A stretch of DNA of 41,078 nucleotides from a virus. The stretch is from positions 1 to 41,078 of the IMG/VR virus record IMGVR_UViG_3300032046_000073; one strand, written 5' to 3'. Both the position numbers and the translations under genes were made by a program. Below, in pieces: positions 6,598 through 40,207 of the stretch; within the stretch, counting starts at the first letter, position 1, and every line of letters starts with the position of its first letter. The notes under the pieces are model-generated. The model was given only the letters and a program-made list of their open reading frames with translations. It was not told the origin of the DNA and searched no databases.

Positions 6598-7083
6598 TTA
6601 TATTATAAATCCGAGAATTCGACCATCGCTTCTTAAAAGCGTTCTCTGGGTTTGAAGTCCCGACCTAAAATTAGTTTCCCTGATAGTGATAGTTGACATA
6701 CTTTCATCAACTACCCAAGCAAGATGACCCGTCCACGACTCATTCGTTTTAACCACCGCCCCTATTTCAGGATAAGCGGAGTTAATCGGATTAAGTTTCG
6801 CCAAGCCATAAACGGACTTACCCGATTTCTCTCGGACAAAAGGAACGCACTGACGATTGTCCCGACTAATCACCTTTACCTGCCCCACTTTTGAAAGAGC
6901 AATTTGGTCTTCATCATACCTTGATATTCCCGATTCGATTCTGACAATCCTATCAGGAATCACCAGTTGACCTTGAACCATTTTTATTTTTGTTTCGACC
7001 CCTGTCTTTGCATTGGCGTAACTTATCTGAGCGACCATTATCAGTAAGAACAGAATTTTCAGCCACGCCCTCGCAATACACAT
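6598..7083 (-). CDS. Secreted CHAP-domain endolysin
   Basis: 161 residues from ATG 7083, chosen because AAGGAG lies 8 nt upstream; an upstream GTG at 7122 sits inside a hairpin. Residues 1-25 are a signal peptide or signal anchor (MCIARAWLKILFLLIMVAQI then SYANA). The CHAP domain follows: RQCVPFVREKSG with Cys79, the G-A-V-V step, WTGHLAWVVDE with His120, and TIRETNF with Glu136. CHAP enzymes cut peptidoglycan as amidases or endopeptidases. With its own export signal it may need the holin only for timing. Confidence 0.9.
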   Translation of the reverse strand: MCIARAWLKILFLLIMVAQISYANAKTGVETKIKMVQGQLVIPDRIVRIESGISRYDEDQIALSKVGQVKVISRDNRQCVPFVREKSGKSVYGLAKLNPINSAYPEIGAVVKTNESWTGHLAWVVDESMSTITIRETNFRSGLQTQRTLLRSDGRILGFII

Positions 7084-7101
7084 AGGCGAAAACTCCTTCC
7101 A

Positions 7102-7141
7102 TTGGGATAGCCAAATAGTCACGCTGATTCAGCTATCCCAA
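7102..7141 (-). other. 10-bp inverted repeat before the endolysin
   Basis: TTGGGATAGC (7102-7111) and GCTATCCCAA (7132-7141), perfect, 20-nt loop, no T run. On the minus strand it stands between the methyltransferase stop and the endolysin ribosome site, so it could control lysin translation, stabilise mRNA, or act as an operator. Confidence 0.6.
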
Positions 7142-9240: not shown

Positions 9241-9381
9241 TTACTCCTTATAATTAGGATTATATTTACATCTTTCGCATATCTCCCACTTCCCCCAATT
9301 CTGACTCCATTTTATCCATTCTCCGCATTTACATTTTAATCTGCCCAAGAATATGGCATTGAACCATTTGATGATTTTCAT
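9241..9381 (-). CDS. Small zinc-ribbon-like protein (46 aa)
   Basis: ATG at 9381 overlaps the stop of the coiled-coil gene (ATGA). C-K-C-G and C-x-x-C (RLKCKCGEW, EICERCKYN) flank an aromatic core WIKWSQNWGKW, so one zinc may be bound. Function unknown. Confidence 0.6.
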   Translation of the reverse strand: MKIIKWFNAIFLGRLKCKCGEWIKWSQNWGKWEICERCKYNPNYKE

Positions 9382-10187
9382 TTTATCCCTAAAAACTTTC
9401 GTAATCCTAAAGCAATTAACTGACTGGCAGAATAATAATCAATTCCGCTCGAGGTTTTCTCTTGCTGAGACTTTAAACTTGCCTCTAAATCTTTTATTCT
9501 TTTATCGGCAATTTTTAAAGCTTTTTCGTGTTCTTGCATCTCTAAAATCTGCTCATTTTCTAAATCCTTGATTTTCTTTTCGGCGACATCTCTTTCTTTT
9601 TGAACCTTGATAAAATTATCCCAGTTTTCTTTTTGTTTTCGTTTTGTTTCTTCTTGATTTTCAGCTTTAACTTGTAAATCCTTATAAGCCTTCTCACACT
9701 CGCTCAATTTCTTTTCAAATTCAGTAGAGATTGCTTTTTCTTTTGAGCAATCGCAATCTGGGCAGACTGGCTCTGGTATATTACAATCTTTTTTCTTCAT
9801 CCAAGTATTGTCTTTCGCCTTCGAATAGTTAATCAGAATATCAGCCAAGACATCGACATTACCATTCTTGATTTTAGCCATCGCCGAGGCGACATCGGCT
9901 TTGAGTCCCGCCTCATCAACTTTACCGAGACTTATTTCTCGTTGTTTTCGCAAAGTTTTTTCGACGATTAACTCCATATTTGAATCCGAGAACCCAGTCA
10001 TAGTTTCTCCTTTCGGTCTAAATAACCTAAATGATTTTATATTGTAATTATTTACTGTGATTAAAGATGGATAGATTAAAGGGTCAATTATCATTCCTGT
10101 GTCAAGATTCAAACAAAAAAAATGTTGAGGATAGTTTTTATCTTTGTAAAAATTAGTTTCAGCAATTATCCAACCATCATTTTTCAT
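9378..10187 (-). CDS. C-terminal half of split C39-like peptidase, continuous with a coiled-coil protein
   Basis: Residues 1-57 (MKNDGWIIAETNFYKDKNYP, QHFFCLNLDTGMIIDPL) hold the His and Asp regions expected in the second half of a C39-type papain-fold domain whose Gln/Cys half is encoded at 10779-11048; the HNH gene at 10184 lies between. The start ATG overlaps the HNH stop (ATGA), with AAGGAT upstream in the HNH coding end. The rest is a long charged coiled coil with a C-P-D-C-D-C cluster. An in-frame AAAGGAG before Met63 (10001) suggests a separate 207-residue coiled-coil product, perhaps originally a separate gene. Whether the two peptidase halves reassemble is unknown. Confidence 0.7.
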   Translation of the reverse strand: MKNDGWIIAETNFYKDKNYPQHFFCLNLDTGMIIDPLIYPSLITVNNYNIKSFRLFRPKGETMTGFSDSNMELIVEKTLRKQREISLGKVDEAGLKADVASAMAKIKNGNVDVLADILINYSKAKDNTWMKKKDCNIPEPVCPDCDCSKEKAISTEFEKKLSECEKAYKDLQVKAENQEETKRKQKENWDNFIKVQKERDVAEKKIKDLENEQILEMQEHEKALKIADKRIKDLEASLKSQQEKTSSGIDYYSASQLIALGLRKFLGIK

Positions 10188-10747
10188 ATTAACTTATCCT
10201 TTTTGTAATCTTTCCATCTTTTTTTAGAATTTTCGCTTCCAGTGATAAATTGTATATTTTTAAGAGTATAATTCTTATCATTGTTTATCCTATCAAGGGT
10301 CGGTCTGTACTTATACTTGAATCCACCTTTGACCCAATTTTTATAAATCCTTATTAAACTATCTGATTTTTCTGCTATTTTTTTAAACTCCTCGAAAGTA
10401 AAAAACAATTTTCTTTTTTTATATGTATCATCTTTTTTAATCCTATATCCAATCCATAAATACATATTTCTGATTATAACCTCTAACTTTTTTTTATAAA
10501 CAATGTCATATTCTCTTTTTTTCTCATAATCATAGGAACTTTTTATTCGTTCTAATGCAGATTCACGATTTTTTTTGTACCACTTTTTAGATTTTTCTTT
10601 TATTATCTCTTTGTTTACAGAGTATCTTTTTTTTGCTTCAAAAGAATGACAGCTTTTACAAATTCCAATATATCCATCTTTGTATTCTGTATTAGCATAA
10701 AAATCGGTTAATGGTAATTTTTTGTTACACTTTTTACATATTTTCAT
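10184..10747 (-). CDS. HNH-type homing endonuclease interrupting the peptidase gene
   Basis: 187 residues. An N-terminal zinc knuckle (MKICKKCNKKLPLTDFY, ICKSCHSFEAKKRY), a long basic helical stretch, then the nuclease core YRPTLDRINNDKNYTLKNIQ followed by FITGSENSKKRW. This D-R-I-N/D-N form of HNH is common in phage free-standing homing enzymes. Its ATG is exactly 6 nt after a TATACT box, so it should be made from a leaderless mRNA with no ribosome site. Insertion between codons for ..NFL and KNDGW.. splits the peptidase gene. Very AT-rich. Confidence 0.85.
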   Translation of the reverse strand: MKICKKCNKKLPLTDFYANTEYKDGYIGICKSCHSFEAKKRYSVNKEIIKEKSKKWYKKNRESALERIKSSYDYEKKREYDIVYKKKLEVIIRNMYLWIGYRIKKDDTYKKRKLFFTFEEFKKIAEKSDSLIRIYKNWVKGGFKYKYRPTLDRINNDKNYTLKNIQFITGSENSKKRWKDYKKDKLI

Positions 10748-10753
10748 ATCTAA

Positions 10754-10782
10754 AGTATAACACTTTTTTATTTGGTTGTCAA
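10754..10782 (-). promoter_or_regulatory. Leaderless promoter of the HNH gene
   Basis: TTGACA (10782-10777), 17-bp spacer, TATACT (10759-10754), then 6 nt to the ATG at 10747. The TGA of TTGACA is the stop codon of the upstream peptidase half. Same geometry at 34711-34739 and 31669-31697. Confidence 0.9.
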
Positions 10783-11048
10783 GTATTCAAAAAGTTTATC
10801 GCTTCTTCTATGTCGGTAGTTTTACCATTATACTCCAATCCCAAAGTTCCAGCCGCACAAGCAGAATCTAAATATCCTTGACTATCGAAGCAATTATGGT
10901 CGTCTAAAATTCTTGCCACTTCTGGCGGTTCTTTATCTATAAGACAAGCAAGTGAAGTCAGAAAACAACCATAGGAACCAATGCTTAAATTGGCTGGGCT
11001 AAATGTTTTATATTTCCATCTTGGGTCTTTTTGCGAATAAGAGGTCAT
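10779..11048 (-). CDS. N-terminal half of split C39-like peptidase
   Basis: 89 residues: SYSQKDPRWKYKTFSP, then IGSYGCFLTSLACLI with the likely catalytic Cys28 and the oxyanion Gln6. This is the first half of the papain-like C39 fold found in many phage lytic or virion peptidases, normally about 150 residues. It ends INFLNT-stop, where the missing half would continue KNDGWIIAET (10187). It lies just after two small membrane proteins, so a role in lysis or cell-wall cleavage is plausible. ATG 11048 overlaps the preceding stop. Confidence 0.75.
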   Translation of the reverse strand: MTSYSQKDPRWKYKTFSPANLSIGSYGCFLTSLACLIDKEPPEVARILDDHNCFDSQGYLDSACAAGTLGLEYNGKTTDIEEAINFLNT

Positions 11049-11131
11049 TATTTAATCCACCTATATATTATACCACAAAGGCAGGCGACAAAGATAATGA
11101 AAATTAAAGCCCAACCTTGTTCAGGGGTCAT
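11048..11131 (-). CDS. Tiny membrane protein (27 aa)
   Basis: MTPEQGWALIFIIFVACLCG then IIYRWIK: one hydrophobic helix with a basic end. It overlaps both neighbours by 3-4 bp. Its coding sequence contains TGTGGTATAATA, the same word as the extended -10 promoters at 34011 and 30791, so it may also hold a promoter for the peptidase/HNH region. Possible second holin or antiholin component. Confidence 0.6.
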   Translation of the reverse strand: MTPEQGWALIFIIFVACLCGIIYRWIK

Positions 11132-25598: not shown

Positions 25599-25871
25599 CT
25601 AAGTCCTTTCTCTTTTAAAAGATATTTTTGCCCTATCATCGCTTCGGTTAACTAAACTTTTATCAAATACATTACTTATTTTAGCTTTATCACTACTGAC
25701 TACTGAACCAGGTCTACCTTTGTCAAAGTAATGCCCATCGTCAAATAAATATCCTTGATCAAATAATAAAGGTAAATCCCTACCTTCAGATGCTGACTGG
25801 TTATTCCCATAAATAGAAGTTTTTTTATTACTTATGGATATTTGAGCTTTGTCTGATGTGAATGTTGGCAT
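25599..25871 (-). CDS. Small repeat-containing virion protein (90 aa)
   Basis: Three copies of S-D-(K/R)-A-(Q/K)-I-S are visible (FTSDKAQISISNKK, SSDKAKISNVF, SDDRAKISFKRE) around an aromatic Asp/Gly-rich core (LLFDQGYLFDDGHYFDKG). It overlaps the upstream gene by 1 bp. No family known to me; structural by context. Confidence 0.55.
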   Translation of the reverse strand: MPTFTSDKAQISISNKKTSIYGNNQSASEGRDLPLLFDQGYLFDDGHYFDKGRPGSVVSSDKAKISNVFDKSLVNRSDDRAKISFKRERT

Positions 25872-26344
25872 TAATACCCCCTGATATCAGCACCTTCTGT
25901 TATAGGTAATCCAATAACATTTGAACCGGGTGTGATTGCCTTCCATAAGCAAATGTAGTATATGTTTCCTTCTGTTATACTTGCATCTTCGAATGTCTCA
26001 ATAATATCTGCGCCATTGACTATTAGATAAGGTCCCAGAACTGATGCTAATGTATCCACTCCCAGAGTAGGCGTCGCATCACTCCAAATTTTATTCTCAG
26101 TAATATTGGTAGCGGTTGTTCGAGCTATTAGTTTCTCAGTATTACCCGCAACTCCTACTTCAAGAGTTGCCTCACCAACTAAATCAGCCGTGCATACCCC
26201 AAATATTCTCACCAATACGTCACCGTTTACTTGAAATAAAATCCAATCAATAGGAGTTCCTAAATCACCCCTTGTCTCACCAAAAGCATCCGGTATCGCT
26301 ACCGCTATCTCGTAACCATCTAAAGTTGGAATTTGTTTAAGCAT
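25871..26344 (-). CDS. Virion protein, downstream copy of a tandem pair (157 aa)
   Basis: Start at ATG 26344 (TTAGGAG); the earlier in-frame start at 26362 overlaps the previous gene. LKQIPTLDGYEIAVAIPDAF, FQVNGDVLVRIFGVCTADLV, GPYLIVNGADIIETFEDA. Clear paralogue of the next gene (LDGYE, FQVNGDV, IFGVCT, LGPY, VNG-x-DIIET shared). Beta-rich, likely a head-decoration or virion surface protein. Confidence 0.65.
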   Translation of the reverse strand: MLKQIPTLDGYEIAVAIPDAFGETRGDLGTPIDWILFQVNGDVLVRIFGVCTADLVGEATLEVGVAGNTEKLIARTTATNITENKIWSDATPTLGVDTLASVLGPYLIVNGADIIETFEDASITEGNIYYICLWKAITPGSNVIGLPITEGADIRGY

Positions 26345-26351
26345 ATTACTC

Positions 26352-26843
26352 CTAACTATCAAATCTTACAGAAGCACCACCAGTAATCGGCACTCCCTTA
26401 ACTGATGATCCTGGACTCAATGGTCTCCAAAGACAGACATAATAAATAACTCCGGCTGTTAAATCAGTTGTTTTGGTAGTCTCTATAATATCTAATCCAT
26501 TTACGATTACATAAGGCCCAAGAACAGTTGACCAAAGATCCACTCCAACTGATGGTGCAGAATCGCTCCATAAACAGCCCGCATCTATATTTGTAGCGGT
26601 GGTCAGTGCTATAAGAGCGGCGGTGTTGCCCGTGACTCCAACTTCTAAACTTCCGGAAGTCCCTACGACATTTGTAGTGCATACACCGAATATTCTTAAA
26701 ACCACATCACCATTGACCTGAAATATAGTCCAAGCGCCGCTGGCGGTGTCTTTGTCCCCGTGAGCACCAGAAGTCCCTGTAAAGGCGGCAGGTGCAGAAA
26801 CTGCTACCTCATATCCGTCTAAAGTGTTAAGTTGTTTTTGCAT
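26352..26843 (-). CDS. Virion protein, upstream copy of a tandem pair (163 aa)
   Basis: MQKQLNTLDGYEVAVSAPAA, FQVNGDVVLRIFGVCTTNVV, LGPYVIVNGLDIIETTKT, YYVCLWRPLSPGSSVKGVPI. Along the whole length it aligns with the gene at 25871 at moderate identity, so the pair arose by an old tandem duplication. The role is inferred from position after the capsid block. Confidence 0.65.
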   Translation of the reverse strand: MQKQLNTLDGYEVAVSAPAAFTGTSGAHGDKDTASGAWTIFQVNGDVVLRIFGVCTTNVVGTSGSLEVGVTGNTAALIALTTATNIDAGCLWSDSAPSVGVDLWSTVLGPYVIVNGLDIIETTKTTDLTAGVIYYVCLWRPLSPGSSVKGVPITGGASVRFDS

Positions 26844-30803: not shown

Positions 30804-30995
30804 TTAAGATTTTTTGGCAGCTCGCACAAATGCACCTTTTGTGGATTTGGCAGAACTTTTGGCAGTTTTTACTTCACCTGCTATTGATGATCCGCCACCT
30901 TTTGGAAAACAAATATGGATAAATTTTCCACCACTAAGTTTTTTAGTTCTTACTCGGCCACCGCCACTAACACAAGATTCAAATTGTTGACTCAT
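30804..30995 (-). CDS. Small basic protein (63 aa)
   Basis: MSQQFESCVSGGGRVRTKKL, then GGKFIHICFPKGG, and a lysine/serine tail. Small proteins of this look (x-F-x-S-C-V-x-x-G-G-R-V-R-T) are familiar from other phage head clusters but without known function. Its AAAGGAG site lies in the 3' end of the HNH gene. It overlaps the HNH stop by 17 bp. Confidence 0.65.
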   Translation of the reverse strand: MSQQFESCVSGGGRVRTKKLSGGKFIHICFPKGGGSSIAGEVKTAKSSAKSTKGAFVRAAKKS

Positions 30996-31662
30996 ATGGC
31001 TCCTTTAAACTTTTTAAATGGATTGCTGATAATATAAATTTTGTTAAATATTTTTTGTGGTATTTTGTATGACAATATACACAAAGTGTCTTACCATTAT
31101 CTATATTATATGCTAATTCTGGATATTCCCATTTTTCTTTTATGTGATGTGCTATTAATAATCTTTTTCTTTTGCAACCACAAGCAATGCACTTATGATT
31201 ATCTCGTTGTAGTATCTTTATACTCCACTCTTTTAGTCTAACTTTATCCGTTTTTGATTCATCTGGTTTTCTCGTTGACAAATATCGGCATTTATTACTG
31301 CAATATCTTCTATTTTGTATATATCCATTTTTACCAATTATCCCATTTATTCTACTTGCCTGTATATAAAATGTATCACCGCAATACTTACAATCTATAT
31401 ATTTTCCATTTCTTTTGATACCTCTTAACTTATCTCCCCTATTCTTTGCAGCCTTCAATAATTTATCTGTTATCTTATGTGGTTTTCTTAATTTCTGTCT
31501 CCACAATGCATCATATTTAACATATTGCGATGGATTTGAATATTTGGTGGAACATTTTCTTGAACAAAATGTCTTTCTTGTAATATCACGTCTTATTTTT
31601 AATTGAATTTCTTTTCCACATTGAAGGCATTTCTTTTTTCCCAAATTTAGTTTATTTCTCAT
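30979..31662 (-). CDS. HNH endonuclease with zinc fingers, leaderless
   Basis: 227 residues. Three or more Cys clusters (KKCLQCGKEIQLKIRRD, DCKYCGDTFYI, RRYCSNKCRYL) precede an HNH core: KCIACGCKRKRLLIAHHIKE, then ELAYNIDNGKTLCVYCHTKY. A free-standing homing-type enzyme between portal and the capsid block. Its ATG is 6 nt after a TACAAT box, so no leader or ribosome site is used. The TGA of its -35 box is the stop codon of portal. Confidence 0.85.
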   Translation of the reverse strand: MRNKLNLGKKKCLQCGKEIQLKIRRDITRKTFCSRKCSTKYSNPSQYVKYDALWRQKLRKPHKITDKLLKAAKNRGDKLRGIKRNGKYIDCKYCGDTFYIQASRINGIIGKNGYIQNRRYCSNKCRYLSTRKPDESKTDKVRLKEWSIKILQRDNHKCIACGCKRKRLLIAHHIKEKWEYPELAYNIDNGKTLCVYCHTKYHKKYLTKFILSAIHLKSLKEPYESTI

Positions 31663-34022: not shown

Positions 34023-36053
34023 TCAAATAGAAATACCATCATCATATTTATCTTCTTGGCTGGCGTGTTTTTGAATCTGAACTAAAATCCTTTCTTGTGG
34101 CGTTAAAACCTTTTCTGTCTCCCAATCTTTTGGTCTTAATGATTCCATCCCATATCTAATTGAATTATGCACTAAAATATCGTTTGCAAAGTATTCGTTG
34201 CAGTCTTCAACAGTAATATCATAAACAGTATATTTATCTTTTAACCCTTGCTTTGTTACTACACTTTCGAGAACAGTATGTGGTATTTTCGTATTTATTT
34301 GATATAAATTGTTTGCTACAAAGTGGACATTTTTTCTCGACAAAATCAAGTTTATTACTTCTTCGCCATTGACTCTTGCATCTGTTGGAGCAAAATCTAT
34401 CCTTTTCTCTAAGGGTATAACACGGGAATGTTCTCCCACAACTATCGCATTGTTTATTAACTGGTTTTCGCTCTTTCCAATGATTTTTGCCGTGAATTCT
34501 TTTATCAATGAGTTCAAGATTTTTAATTCTATTATCAAGTTTATTCCCATTTTTATGATGAACATAAAACCCATTAGGAATTTTTCCAAAATTATCTTCC
34601 CATATTTGGCGATGTAAAAAATTAGTCCCATTATAGAAATAATATTTTCCCTTGCTGGGATATATAAAATATTTTCTTCCTTTGTGTTCTCTTGTTCTTT
34701 CCATACTTCAAGTATATCACCATATCTAATATCTGTCAAGCATTGCCAACCACGATTTTTAGTCCACACCTGATGTTTGGGTGTGCCAATCAATTTTCTA
34801 CCACTTGATAAAGATATTTTTATAACATTAGCATTCTTTTTAACCAACCAAGAATCTTTTACCTTTTTAAGTCCTTTTCTTGTGTAAACCAAATCTCCTA
34901 TCTTAATATCTTTAACTAACCTATCACCATCAATGGTTTTAACTAAAGTATCACCCGTGAGACAATCCATCGGGTTTGACCATTCGTGAATTGTATCATC
35001 AGGAACATTAATTACTTTGCCATTAATATCAGTTTTAAATAGATAATTTCTATATGCCTTGATTGTTTTGACACTATTTTTTGTGATTGATATTCTTTGA
35101 GATTGGACAAAATCTATTCCCCGACTCACTGAACCTTGACCTTTAACAGAACCGATAATGTTAATTCCATAACTTCTAATCTCATCGATTGACTTCGGCT
35201 CGGCGCTATCAGCAATCACAAGAGCTTTATCTAAATTATTTAAAGTATCGGCAATAACTTTATTAGAAATACCCTTTTGATATAGTTTCTCATCGATAAT
35301 ATATCCCCCATTATAATAATAAATTGCCTCGATTACCGCCGGGTCGATTGAATAACCGAAATCCAGTCCATAGCGTTCCAATCTTGCCTCGTGAGGCACT
35401 TCATCAATAATCCGCCAACCCTTGTAAATTCTGCCCTCAAGCTCGCCTAACTGCCCCAAACCATAAACCTGCCACCAGTTCTTATTGTTGCGCCTTGACT
35501 CAATCGACTGGATGATATTTGGATCAAGCCCCTCATTGTCAAGATAGGTAAGAGTTAAAAAATCAATATCATTATTCGGCATAACTTCGGTATACATCCA
35601 ATATTCGTGAGTTGGATTACTGTCTACCCAGATAATTTTTTTAGTTCTAACCTCTAAATGAGTATAAACATCAAAAGGAATATTATTACCCTCATTTATA
35701 AACAAAACATCCCTTCTTGGGCCACGAACTTTCGCTGGTTGATCTGCCGAAAAAAATTCTAATTTAGATCCGCCCTTAAATGTGTAAATAAAATCAGTTT
35801 TGTTCCAATTATTATCCTGAAAATAGCCGTGAGCGGTCATTATATTAACAAAATCGCGAATTGCCCCCTTTTTTAGATGCGGAAGTGTTTCCGAAACAAC
35901 ACTTACCATTTCTTGTTTTAAACTTTGGCAATAATCTATCAACCACATCAGTATAGATATAGTTTTACTTGCTCCTGTGCCACCATTCACAAATCTAATA
36001 CGCTTTTTTAACTTTATTATTTTTTTTAATGCGGTGGTTTCTCTAAATATCAT
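34023..36053 (-). CDS. terL: Terminase large subunit containing an intein
   Basis: 676 residues as translated. ATPase: Walker A-type FVNGGTGASKTISIL (about 21-35) and Walker B DVLFINEG (115-122). Nuclease: GLDFGYSIDPAV (Asp231), ALVIADSAEPKSID (Asp282) and, after splicing, NPMD/SIRYGMESLR, the third metal-site motif. Residues 364-630 are an intein; the mature protein is 409 residues. It packages DNA by ATP-driven translocation and cuts the concatemer. ATG overlaps the stop of the HNH gene at 36050. Inside the intein another gene is encoded in a different frame (34234-34704). Confidence 0.92.
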   Translation of the reverse strand: MIFRETTALKKIIKLKKRIRFVNGGTGASKTISILMWLIDYCQSLKQEMVSVVSETLPHLKKGAIRDFVNIMTAHGYFQDNNWNKTDFIYTFKGGSKLEFFSADQPAKVRGPRRDVLFINEGNNIPFDVYTHLEVRTKKIIWVDSNPTHEYWMYTEVMPNNDIDFLTLTYLDNEGLDPNIIQSIESRRNNKNWWQVYGLGQLGELEGRIYKGWRIIDEVPHEARLERYGLDFGYSIDPAVIEAIYYYNGGYIIDEKLYQKGISNKVIADTLNNLDKALVIADSAEPKSIDEIRSYGINIIGSVKGQGSVSRGIDFVQSQRISITKNSVKTIKAYRNYLFKTDINGKVINVPDDTIHEWSNPMDCLTGDTLVKTIDGDRLVKDIKIGDLVYTRKGLKKVKDSWLVKKNANVIKISLSSGRKLIGTPKHQVWTKNRGWQCLTDIRYGDILEVWKEQENTKEENILYIPARENIISIMGLIFYIAKYGKIILEKFLMGFMFIIKMGINLIIELKILNSLIKEFTAKIIGKSENQLINNAIVVGEHSRVIPLEKRIDFAPTDARVNGEEVINLILSRKNVHFVANNLYQINTKIPHTVLESVVTKQGLKDKYTVYDITVEDCNEYFANDILVHNSIRYGMESLRPKDWETEKVLTPQERILVQIQKHASQEDKYDDGISI
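34234..34704 (-). CDS. HNH homing endonuclease nested in the intein, different frame
   Basis: 156 residues: HRQIWEDNFGKIPNGFYVHH, then KNGNKLDNRIKNLELIDKRI form the HNH core; two zinc ribbons follow (QCDSCGRTFPCYTLREKDRF with CSNRC, and KKCPLCSKQFISNKYE with CSRKC). It runs -1 relative to the intein, starts at ATG 34704 right after an in-frame TGA, and stops at 34234 at the beginning of block F. It thus occupies exactly the endonuclease slot of the intein. It has its own perfect promoter 6 nt upstream and should be leaderless. Confidence 0.88.
   Translation of the reverse strand: MERTREHKGRKYFIYPSKGKYYFYNGTNFLHRQIWEDNFGKIPNGFYVHHKNGNKLDNRIKNLELIDKRIHGKNHWKERKPVNKQCDSCGRTFPCYTLREKDRFCSNRCKSQWRRSNKLDFVEKKCPLCSKQFISNKYENTTYCSRKCSNKARVKR
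34711..34739 (-). promoter_or_regulatory. Promoter inside intein block B for the nested HNH gene
   Basis: TTGACA (34739-34734), 17 bp, TATACT (34716-34711), 6 nt, ATG (34704). In the intein frame the same bases encode L-T in QCLTDIRYGDILE, so the promoter is embedded in conserved intein coding sequence. Confidence 0.9.
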
Positions 36054-36439
36054 TGTTGTAAATATTCTATCGCTTTATTTAATAATTTAGGATTGTCTTT
36101 AAAACTACCGAGACCCCAATTACAGCACTGACATAAAAGACCTCTTATTTTGTCGGTCTTATGACAATGATCAATTGATAACTTCTTGCCATTTTCAGGA
36201 TTACCACATATTGCACATAGTCCATTTTGTTTTTTGTAGAGTTGATTATATTCATCAAGAGAAATACCAAACTTCTTTTTTAACCTCATGTCCGTAAATT
36301 TATCAAATGTCTCTATATAATATTTCCTTCTCTTATTAATGTTAATCTTTCTGTAATCTCGACTATAAGCAATTTTTTTATCTTTATGATCAAGATAATA
36401 TTGACGATAATATTCGGCATTATATTTCTTTTTTTGCAT
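36050..36439 (-). CDS. Endonuclease VII-like HNH protein between terminase genes
   Basis: 129 residues from ATG 36439 (GGAGG, 6-7 nt upstream; a GTG at 36445 is less likely). The N-terminal half is basic and Tyr-rich (KKKYNAEYYRQYYLDHKDKK). The C-terminal half matches recombination endonuclease VII-type proteins: YNQLYKKQNGLCAICGNPEN, KLSIDHCHKTDKIRGLLCQC, CNWGLGSFKDNP. It may resolve branched DNA before packaging or act as a free-standing homing enzyme; the place between small and large terminase, like other HNH genes here, fits either. Confidence 0.85.
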   Translation of the reverse strand: MQKKKYNAEYYRQYYLDHKDKKIAYSRDYRKININKRRKYYIETFDKFTDMRLKKKFGISLDEYNQLYKKQNGLCAICGNPENGKKLSIDHCHKTDKIRGLLCQCCNWGLGSFKDNPKLLNKAIEYLQQ

Positions 36440-36782
36440 CTCCACCCTCCGATTCTTTCACTTCTATTCTCTTAACACTTACCCCTCCTAATATTGGAAT
36501 AATTATTGCATTATCTATCGGTATATTGGGAGCAGAACCTTGAGGCATACCATCAATCATCTTCCATAAAAGCTCTTTCATTCGGGGATTATGTAAATAA
36601 TAATCAGCAATATCATTAGCCATCTTTGGATCTGCTTCCAATTTCGCAATAATTATATTTTTAAAATTAGTGAAAGTATGAACGCTACCTTTTTTCTTTC
36701 CTCCAATATTGGGATGACCCTTTACAAATCTTCCGGTTCTATCCCTTACCATTATTCCCCCAGTATTTATTGGTTCATTCAC
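36420..36782 (-). CDS. Probable terminase small subunit
   Basis: 120 residues from GTG 36782 (GGAG 7 nt upstream); ATG 36752 is an alternative. RDRTGRFVKGHPNIGGKKKG resembles the basic N-terminus of many small terminases and DUF5681-type proteins; TFTNFKNIIIAKLEADPKMA, LHNPRMKELLWKMIDGMPQG continues in the same way. Position directly before the large subunit supports the call. It would recognise the packaging site. Confidence 0.65.
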   Translation of the reverse strand: MNEPINTGGIMVRDRTGRFVKGHPNIGGKKKGSVHTFTNFKNIIIAKLEADPKMANDIADYYLHNPRMKELLWKMIDGMPQGSAPNIPIDNAIIIPILGGVSVKRIEVKESEGGDAKKEI

Positions 36783-38039: not shown

Positions 38040-39629
38040 TTACCTCACCCTCCCCGGCATTTGCTTTTTTGTCTCATTGTCATCTGGTATTTCACAAATT
38101 AGGCTCTCTGAACTAATTAGCATGCAACTCATTGACACCGCATTTTCAATTGCTTTTCTTGTAACTTTAATGGGGTCTATAATTCCCGCCTCGACCAAGT
38201 CCTTAAATTCATTCTTCTTAGCATCCCAGCCCCAACTCAAATTCTTATTTTCTAAAATCTTTTCAATTATTGTCTCTGGATTTTTACCAGCATTCTCAAC
38301 AATCTTTTTAATTGGAGCTTTTATCGCTTCATAAAATATTTGTTCACCTAAATCTTGAGTTTCCTTAACCAATCTTAGCAAGACCACACCGCCCCCCGCC
38401 ACAATACCCTCCTCGACCGCCGCTCTTGTGGCAGCTAAGGCATCCTCTATCTTGTGTTTTTTATAGATTAACTCTTGCTCGGTAGCCGCCCCAATTCTAA
38501 TTACTCCAATCCCACCTGATAATCTCGCTATTCGTTCTTTAATTTTATCTCGATCAAAGTCCGAAATAGCTTCTTTATAACCCTGCTTTAAGATTTTGAC
38601 TCTATCTTTTATTTTTTTATCACTTCCACCTCCCTTTACGATAATCGTATAATCGTGTTTTGAAATTACTCTCTCTGCCGAACCTAAATCCTGCGATGTG
38701 ACATCCTCTAATTTATCAATATCTTTGGAAATAAACTTTGCCCCACAAGCCACCGCAATATCTTCGCCTTGATTAGTTCTCTCCTCATCAAGTCCAGGAA
38801 GTCTTATCACTAAAAACGAAAATATATTTTTAATTGTATTTGTTACAGCCGTAGTTAGAGCTTCGTTTTTCATATCATCGCAGATTATCACTAATCCTTT
38901 AATGCCTTTAGCTAAAAGTCCGTCTGCTAAAGGTGATAATTCCTCATTAATAGAAATTATATGATCTGTTACCAATATTGGTACATCTTCATAGACCGCT
39001 TCTTGTCTGAAGGGATTAGTCATCAAATAGGGAGTGATAAAACCCTGCTCAAACTTAATTCCTTTTGCGACATCTTTTTCGAGTTTTATATCCTTTGAAG
39101 TCTCAACTGTAATAGCTCCGTCTTTACCAACCTCGTGCATCATTTCACCAATAAGTTTACCAGTAACTTCATCTTCAACCGCGATAGTAGCCACTTGGAC
39201 TAACTCCTCAATAGAGTTCAGTGGTTTTGATATTTTTTTAAGAGCTTCGATTGTTTCTTTTGATGCTCGTTCAATCCCTTCTTTAATCTCGATCGGGTCC
39301 CGGCCAGAAAGAATGTATTTAACCCCCTCGTTTGCTAAAGAGGCAGCAAGTATTACTGCCGTTGTTGTTCCATCACCCGGCTCGTTTTGTTTGGTTGCGA
39401 CTTCCTTTATAGACTGAACCCCCACATTAACCCAAGGGTCTTTAGTTTTGTTAAAAAATGATGCTATTGATACACCATCATTAGTGATAATAGGTGGTGC
39501 TGTATCCCTCGACAAAATAGCATTTTTCCCTTTTGGGCCAAGAGTAGCGCCAACCGCCTTTGATACGATATTAATCCCCTCTAATAGTTTCGCCCGGGCA
39601 TTATCACCAAAAATAACTTCCTTACTCAT
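38040..39629 (-). CDS. groEL: GroEL-like chaperonin
   Basis: 529 residues, close to the usual ~545. ATP-site motifs are intact: AVGATLGPKGKNAILSRD, NDGVSIASF, EPGDGTTTAVILAASL (Asp86), KIEDALAATRAAVEEG and GIVAGGGVVLLRL. The apical domain (EQGFITPYLMTNPFRQEAVY, ICDDMKNEALTTAVTNTIKN) is more divergent from bacterial GroEL, and the C-terminus (ETKKQMPGRVR) lacks the GGM tail. It should fold phage proteins, perhaps capsid, together with the GroES at 39817. Start overlaps the stop of the small gene at 39629. Confidence 0.93.
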   Translation of the reverse strand: MSKEVIFGDNARAKLLEGINIVSKAVGATLGPKGKNAILSRDTAPPIITNDGVSIASFFNKTKDPWVNVGVQSIKEVATKQNEPGDGTTTAVILAASLANEGVKYILSGRDPIEIKEGIERASKETIEALKKISKPLNSIEELVQVATIAVEDEVTGKLIGEMMHEVGKDGAITVETSKDIKLEKDVAKGIKFEQGFITPYLMTNPFRQEAVYEDVPILVTDHIISINEELSPLADGLLAKGIKGLVIICDDMKNEALTTAVTNTIKNIFSFLVIRLPGLDEERTNQGEDIAVACGAKFISKDIDKLEDVTSQDLGSAERVISKHDYTIIVKGGGSDKKIKDRVKILKQGYKEAISDFDRDKIKERIARLSGGIGVIRIGAATEQELIYKKHKIEDALAATRAAVEEGIVAGGGVVLLRLVKETQDLGEQIFYEAIKAPIKKIVENAGKNPETIIEKILENKNLSWGWDAKKNEFKDLVEAGIIDPIKVTRKAIENAVSMSCMLISSESLICEIPDDNETKKQMPGRVR

Positions 39630-39820
39630 TAGATTACCTCCTTAAAATTTAAATTTGCAAAATTACCATAACATTTTTTGGCTACCCTATCGTAAGCAAG
39701 AGCAGCTTCTTTTTTATCATCAAAGCGACCATTGAAAGACCACTTATATTTATTTAATAATTTATAATCGTCATTATCCAATATCATAAATTTACCTTGA
39801 GACAATTTTATCTTCTTCAT
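39629..39820 (-). pseudogene. Remnant of an HNH-AP2 homing endonuclease (core deleted), 63 aa
   Basis: The N-terminus MKKIKLSQGKFMILDNDDYK with LLNKYKWSF is the opening of phage AP2-type HNH endonucleases, and the C-terminus DKKEAALAYDRVAKKCYGNF then ANLNF is their AP2 DNA-binding end. The HNH core normally between them (about 80-100 residues) is missing, so two ends are fused in frame. It overlaps groES by 4 bp and groEL by 1 bp, so it may be kept for translational coupling of the two chaperonin genes or as a small DNA-binding protein. Nuclease activity is not expected. Confidence 0.75.
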
Positions 39821-40077
39821 TTTTCTATTCCCAATATTTCGTCATAATGTAAAATTACGTACTTAACTTTATCTATAAGAATATCCTGTGGCCCATAGCG
39901 TAAATAAATCACCTTATCACCTTTCTTAAATCTTCTCACCTCTTCGCCATCACCGACCGCAATAACTGTCCCCGAATCTTGTTTCTCTTCGTCTTTTTGG
40001 GTTAATAAAATACCTCCCTCGGTTTTTTCTTCTACTTTAGGTTTAACTAACAGACGATCACCGATTGGTATAATCAT
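39817..40077 (-). CDS. groES: GroES-like co-chaperonin
   Basis: 86 residues from ATG 40077 (AAGGAAGGAAA upstream). MIIPIGDRLLVKPKVEEKTE, GGILLTQKDEEKQDSGTVIA, the mobile-loop segment, DKVIYLRYGPQDILIDKVKY, then IILHYDEILGI-like end (VILHYDEILGIEK). It caps the GroEL ring. It is first in the chaperonin operon; about 130 nt upstream (40078-40207) hold no gene I can support, only a short AGTCA/TGACT inverted repeat. Confidence 0.92.
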   Translation of the reverse strand: MIIPIGDRLLVKPKVEEKTEGGILLTQKDEEKQDSGTVIAVGDGEEVRRFKKGDKVIYLRYGPQDILIDKVKYVILHYDEILGIEK

Positions 40078-40207
40078 AGTTTCCTTCCTTCTTAAAACCA
40101 GCAAGGGCGGGAGAGTCAGCTTTGACTAACCGAAGTTTTTAAGGGTGTATTTTATTGTCCTTAAAAAACATATTATCTTTTTCGCTTCGTCTCCTTTTTT
40201 GGTTAAA

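Follow-up and report, generated by a model that had tools for sequence, protein, structure and literature searches.

A gene for a putative cysteine peptidase in a tailed phage has very probably been split, without splicing, by the insertion of an HNH endonuclease gene. The window analysed is a 41,078-base IMG/VR virus record, and the peptidase and HNH genes discussed here all lie on its minus strand. The first part of the peptidase gene (10779-11048 (-)), preceded by the ribosome site AGGTGG, encodes 89 amino acids that read MTSYSQKDPRWKY...SIGSYGCFLTSLACLID...AINFLNT and then stop; it carries the putative catalytic cysteine, C28, in the motif GSYGCFLTS. The HNH endonuclease gene (10184-10747 (-), 187 amino acids) comes next on the minus strand, and is followed by an open reading frame of 269 amino acids (9378-10187 (-)) which starts MKNDGWIIAET (its opening reads MKNDGWIIAETNFYKDKNYPQHFFCLNLDTGMIIDPL). 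Residues 1-62 of this last frame correspond to the beta lobe of the peptidase, with a putative histidine (in PQHFF) and a putative aspartate (in IDPL), and the rest is a charged tail. The order is thus Cys half, HNH gene, His/Asp half. The coordinates and termini of the three frames within 9378-11048 agree with an earlier sequence-only reading of this DNA. The span it gave to the peptidase needs trimming: the C half is present, but only its first 62 codons are peptidase, the remainder being a tail with a start of its own.

At the first joint lies the promoter of the inserted gene (TTGACA-17-TATACT with an extended -10, TGT; 10754-10782 (-), score 11/12), and the stop codon of the N half (TGA, 10781-10779) sits within its -35 hexamer, TTGACA (10782-10777). 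At the second joint the stop codon of the HNH gene (TGA, 10186-10184) shares bases with the start codon of the C half (ATG, 10187-10185), giving an ATGA overlap at 10184-10187 (-), and the ribosome site for the C half, AAAAAGGA, falls within the last HNH codons, just 5' of the C-half ATG. It had been proposed from the letters alone that the -35 element of the cassette supplies the stop for the first half, and its last codons the ribosome site and start for the second; both arrangements were located as described. Both fragments retain a start, a stop and a ribosome site, and the quality of the ribosome sites suggests that both are translated. Read-through of the N-half stop was considered and ruled out, since another in-frame stop follows 14 codons later. 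From its GC content and the alignment to an intact homolog, the inserted segment is placed approximately at 10188-10784 (-), about 597 bp. Its GC content is 24.6%, against 37.5% for the N half and 38% for the window. The repeat at the ends of the insert can be read as 3 bp (AAT) or 4 bp (TGAA), which leaves the position of the edges ambiguous, and the direct repeats at the insertion edges, 3-5 bp in length, are not significant.

By sequence similarity the two reading frames are descendants of one gene, because each half matches the same intact protein. With the joined halves as the query, an intact relative was found in the phage record G003 (IMGVR_UViG_3300035701_000091) at positions 39706-40158 (E 2e-18); the capsid of G003 is 80% identical to that of the window phage. 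The homolog (G003/L007) is an uninterrupted frame of 296 amino acids. The N half alone aligns with its residues 1-74 (34% identity over 77 amino acids, pairwise E 3e-8) and the C half alone with residues 85-212 (36% over 141 amino acids, pairwise E 7e-16), so that the halves match separately and in the correct order, and chance is excluded. The blocks YSQK, GCFL.SL, IAET, PQHFF, DPL and TVNNYNI, and later W.KK.DC, are common to the window halves and the G003 protein. The putative Cys, His and Asp also occur in the same order, as C28, H109 and D122 in the joined reading and, from the alignment, as C25, H99 and D111 in the homolog. The expectation that the halves would join into one domain is therefore upheld by a single intact frame that covers both, and the possibility that the two parts belong to different families was looked at and is contradicted by their match to one protein. 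An alignment of the junction with an uninterrupted relative had been suggested as a check. The relative exists, but the insertion point is not base-exact, because this protein, the sole intact relative found, has a shorter junction region and shares about 40% protein identity with the window peptidase, with synonymous sites saturated.

Searches of IMG/VR, phage records and bacterial genomes gave no close relative of either half beyond G003, and a profile search for the peptidase returned G003 again and nothing else. All 24 records retrieved by way of the methyltransferase gene are without the peptidase. The capsid-related records G001 and G002 likewise have no peptidase match; they are uninformative on this point because their synteny with the window ends before the locus is reached.

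No Pfam or PHROG family matched the halves, the joined reading or the intact homolog, and none of the Pfam C39 models reached its family cut-off. A sequence search against solved structures gave noise only. The assignment of the enzyme comes from a predicted model of the domain of the G003 homolog, which is of low confidence (pLDDT 58, pTM 0.60). The top four Foldseek matches to this low-confidence model are C39 peptidase domains. In structure alignment, the best match to the same model (pLDDT 58) is the C39 domain of ComA (Z 8.6, 113 of 143 residues, 2.9 A), followed by PCAT1 (Z 8.4), Z values of about 8 falling in the range of chance best hits; a pseudomurein endoisopeptidase and the staphopains are next (Z 8.2-7.8). 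Sequence identity to the ComA and PCAT1 domains is 14-16%. These two domains, to whose folds the model of the intact homolog comes closest, share with it the order Cys, His, Asp; they differ in being processing domains of ABC transporters, and the phage protein has no Pfam match. The supported reading is a papain-like cysteine peptidase with a predicted C39-like fold, which is not a family membership. The earlier label "C39-like" accordingly draws its support from the predicted fold only; the Pfam C39 models lend it none. In the model, the split point lies in a low-confidence loop between strand 70-73 and strand 84-87, and would separate a helical lobe bearing the Cys from a beta lobe bearing the His and Asp. 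A small membrane-protein gene precedes the peptidase gene in both phages. From that neighbour we guess at peptidoglycan as the substrate, and the lysis-cassette-type position after such a gene is suggestive only of an endolysin role.

The C half contains a second candidate start. The in-frame ATG at 10001 has AAAGGAG five bases upstream (AAAGGAG-AAACT-ATG; -8.7 kcal/mol, second best among 173 internal ATGs), and translation from it would give the C-terminal tail of 207 amino acids (9378-10001 (-)). The G003 homolog carries the same internal start (AGAAAGGACGAAACT-ATG), at -5.3 kcal/mol, a value typical of the genes of this phage. Judged by these sites, both phages could make the C-terminal tail (207 amino acids here) alone, as is reported for endolysins with internal starts (PMC12203907, PMC7098653). 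Because the site at 10001 can express the tail alone, the open frame of the tail is no evidence for peptidase function or for selection on it; the earlier reading overlooked this start, and any appeal to the length of the open second frame is weakened to that extent. The informative part of the peptidase is 88 + 62 codons, in which there is no stop or frameshift and the three putative catalytic residues are kept. The in-frame codon signal has a z of 4.4 in the N half and 3.7 in the C half.

We propose that, in a tailed phage, a free-standing, homing-type HNH gene with its own promoter would have entered the gene of a single-chain cysteine peptidase and cut it at the boundary of the Cys helical lobe and the His-Asp beta lobe. 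No splicing would follow, and the peptidase gene would be left as two cistrons flanking the HNH gene, the C half probably being translated by way of the AAAAAGGA site and the ATGA overlap. If the known split phage enzymes are a guide, the fragments would most likely associate without a covalent link. That peptidase activity was retained after the split, through reassembly, we give about an even chance. The intact expression signals, the kept residues, the position of the split at a lobe boundary and the precedents of split phage enzymes that are active (Aeh1 NrdA, the gene 43 product of Aeromonas phage 25 and T4 topoisomerase; PMC2988022) all speak for reassembly. An ATGA overlap also joins another HNH gene of the same phage (36050-36445 (-)) to the gene of the terminase large subunit, and the phage thus tolerates such coupling before an essential gene. 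That the peptidase is an active non-covalent heterodimer, and that the HNH family found between the halves of the N4-like RNA polymerase produced it, we hold a little short of an even chance. If the enzyme does work as a heterodimer, the leaderless promoter of the HNH gene would provide a further, independent way of expressing the second half.

A serious competitor, to which we give somewhat better than one chance in three, is that a recent insertion inactivated the peptidase, that the frames have not yet decayed, and that the tail is kept through its own start. The site at 10001, which the intact homolog has kept as well, accounts for 207 of the 269 C-half codons, and it is a small catalytic domain, of about 150 amino acids, that has been cut in two. 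Other genes that are weakly lysis-like, at 6598-7122 and 1609-2127, could make the peptidase dispensable. Against inactivation stand the 88 + 62 undamaged peptidase codons, the retention of the putative Cys, His and Asp together with the in-frame codon signal, and a C half that has a ribosome site as well as an ATGA overlap, like the joint of 36050-36445 to the terminase large subunit. It is improbable that the halves are by now separate proteins with new and differing roles: the tail does have its own start and the second frame is mostly non-peptidase sequence, but residues found in the intact enzyme persist in the peptidase portions of each half.

Self-splicing of the halves back together, by a minimal or unrecognised intron or by a split intein, is very unlikely. 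HNH genes often lie within group I introns, those of phage lysin genes included, and endolysin introns are mentioned in staphylococcal phages (PMC5526547). Here, however, Rfam at gathering cut-offs gave no match in the whole window, and with relaxed filters there was one weak, irrelevant match only in the 1.2 kb from 9900 to 11100. RNA folding of the region compared with shuffles showed no excess structure (z -0.59). The HNH frame occupies 564 of the approximately 597 inserted bases, and a group I or group II core has no room because only about 33 bp lie outside it. The description of the insert as a promoter plus an HNH gene with no intron core is thus in accord with all three results. For an intein, there are 14 residues beyond the aligned extein after the N half and 7 before the C half, which is too short for split-intein domains, and no intein family was matched in the Pfam or PHROG searches. 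Just as unlikely is an assembly artefact in which an HNH fragment from elsewhere, or from another phage, was wrongly built into the peptidase gene: the split allele is known from a single metagenomic record and a second copy was not found, but the joints are functional at both ends (ATGA overlap and ribosome site at one, promoter edge at the other), the HNH gene is complete and on the same strand, and the record is otherwise largely collinear with its relatives.

The HNH protein combines an N-terminal zinc knuckle (CxxC...CxxC) with a C-terminal HNH/endonuclease-VII-like motif. It scores best against PHROG 1035, endonuclease VII (E 2e-16), and other HNH families also match; the Pfam HNH models fell below threshold on the inserted frame. 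There is no Shine-Dalgarno sequence ahead of the gene (-0.4 kcal/mol). Its promoter, at 11/12 with an extended -10, is the best site in 4 kb, and the -10 element TATACT ends 6 nt ahead of the ATG, a leaderless geometry. Among the 794 ATGs on the strand, 8 have a promoter score of 10 or more. Translation of the gene probably relies on a leaderless transcript of its own and would be poor from read-through mRNA, since there is no ribosome site. The window holds a further HNH gene at 30979-31662 (-), with TTGACT-17-TACAAT 6 nt before its ATG (10/12) and a poor ribosome site; this is the second-best promoter of leaderless geometry in the window, and leaderless expression appears probable for both 10184-10747 and 30979-31662. 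The latter occupies the gap between the scaffold and portal genes, where the relatives G001 and G003 carry different endonuclease genes. No promoter common to all the HNH relatives emerged: in the comparison with shuffles, the window and the relatives L053 and L049 alone scored higher, L053 with a 10/12 promoter at leaderless spacing and L049 with a different spacing.

Many phages have free-standing genes for HNH relatives that begin with MKICKxC. The one in L049 lies directly 3' of nrdB. The RNA polymerase of N4 is a heterodimer. In Escherichia phage HK2 an HNH relative lies between genes annotated "RNA polymerase 1 subunit B" and "RNA polymerase", the parts of a split T7-like enzyme, and pSb-1 has the same layout at its split RNA polymerase. 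HNH genes between the split RNA polymerase subunit genes have been described in G7C and EE36P1, and the two-subunit polymerase was proposed to stem from HNH insertion (PMC5418858). A G7C HNH gene is among the matches of the window HNH protein, possibly another than the one described there. The N4-like arrangement (G7C, EE36P1, HK2, pSb-1) thus shares with the window the presence of MKICKxC zinc-knuckle HNH relatives between the parts of an enzyme; the polymerase split is common to a whole phage lineage, whereas the peptidase split is known from one record, beside an intact relative. With a related HNH gene now found between the lobes of another enzyme, the HNH route to heterodimers put forward in PMC5418858 becomes testable.

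The splitting of phage genes into two cistrons by homing endonucleases is well described (PMC2988022, PMC5418858, PMC3670811). In Aeromonas phage Aeh1, nrdA is split by mobE, and the resulting genes-in-pieces ribonucleotide reductase is reported to be active as fragments (PMC2988022, citing Friedrich et al. 2007); the peptidase insertion is of this genes-in-pieces kind. There too a free-standing HNH gene lies in one coding sequence, with two polypeptides and no intron. The Aeh1 enzyme belongs to nucleotide metabolism and its activity was measured, whereas the present one is a small putative cysteine peptidase known from sequence, and its HNH gene carries a leaderless-type promoter. T4 topoisomerase genes 39/60 with mobA, and Aeromonas phage 25 gene 43 with a seg gene (PMC2988022), likewise have a homing endonuclease lying between the two pieces of an originally single gene; they differ in their target, and in having another endonuclease or an uncertain order of events. 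An endonuclease also occupies the "lysin intergenic locus" of a PlyC-type lysin, according to PMC12294143 (citing Nelson et al. 2006). It too separates two components of a lysin system, but PlyCA and PlyCB are separate domains, whereas here two lobes of one catalytic domain are parted. A limited survey of the open-access literature turned up no description of a C39-like peptidase divided inside its catalytic domain. The gene would be a further target for homing-endonuclease splitting, a small cysteine peptidase and not a large replication or transcription enzyme, and one with an intact relative for comparison. The cassette is nearly self-contained, with a promoter at one edge and, at the opposite edge, a ribosome site that serves the gene it interrupts.

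Several other features of the phage were observed. In G003, a GIY-YIG/NUMOD3 endonuclease gene (L007:2443-3084 (+)) starts 97 nt past the intact peptidase gene; with HNH here and GIY-YIG/NUMOD3 there, the peptidase locus attracts two endonuclease classes. The HNH gene at 36050-36445 (-) is endonuclease VII-like and is flanked by the genes of the small and large terminase subunits. The gene of the terminase large subunit (34023-36053 (-)) has no similarity detectable by tblastn to its counterparts in G001 and G003, and since the portal and capsid proteins of the window are 68-89% identical to those of the same two phages, the packaging gene has apparently been exchanged. It carries an intein (34164-34964 (-)). 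An intein endonuclease is normally in frame with its intein. The centre of this one holds a complete HNH gene (34234-34704 (-); PF13392, E 1e-15) in another reading frame of the same strand, and the intein frame stays open. Phage-encoded GroEL and GroES (38040-40104 (-)) are common to the window, G001, G002 and G003. At 25871-26843 (-) there is a pair of neighbouring paralogous genes that share about 56% identity and are in tandem in G003 too.
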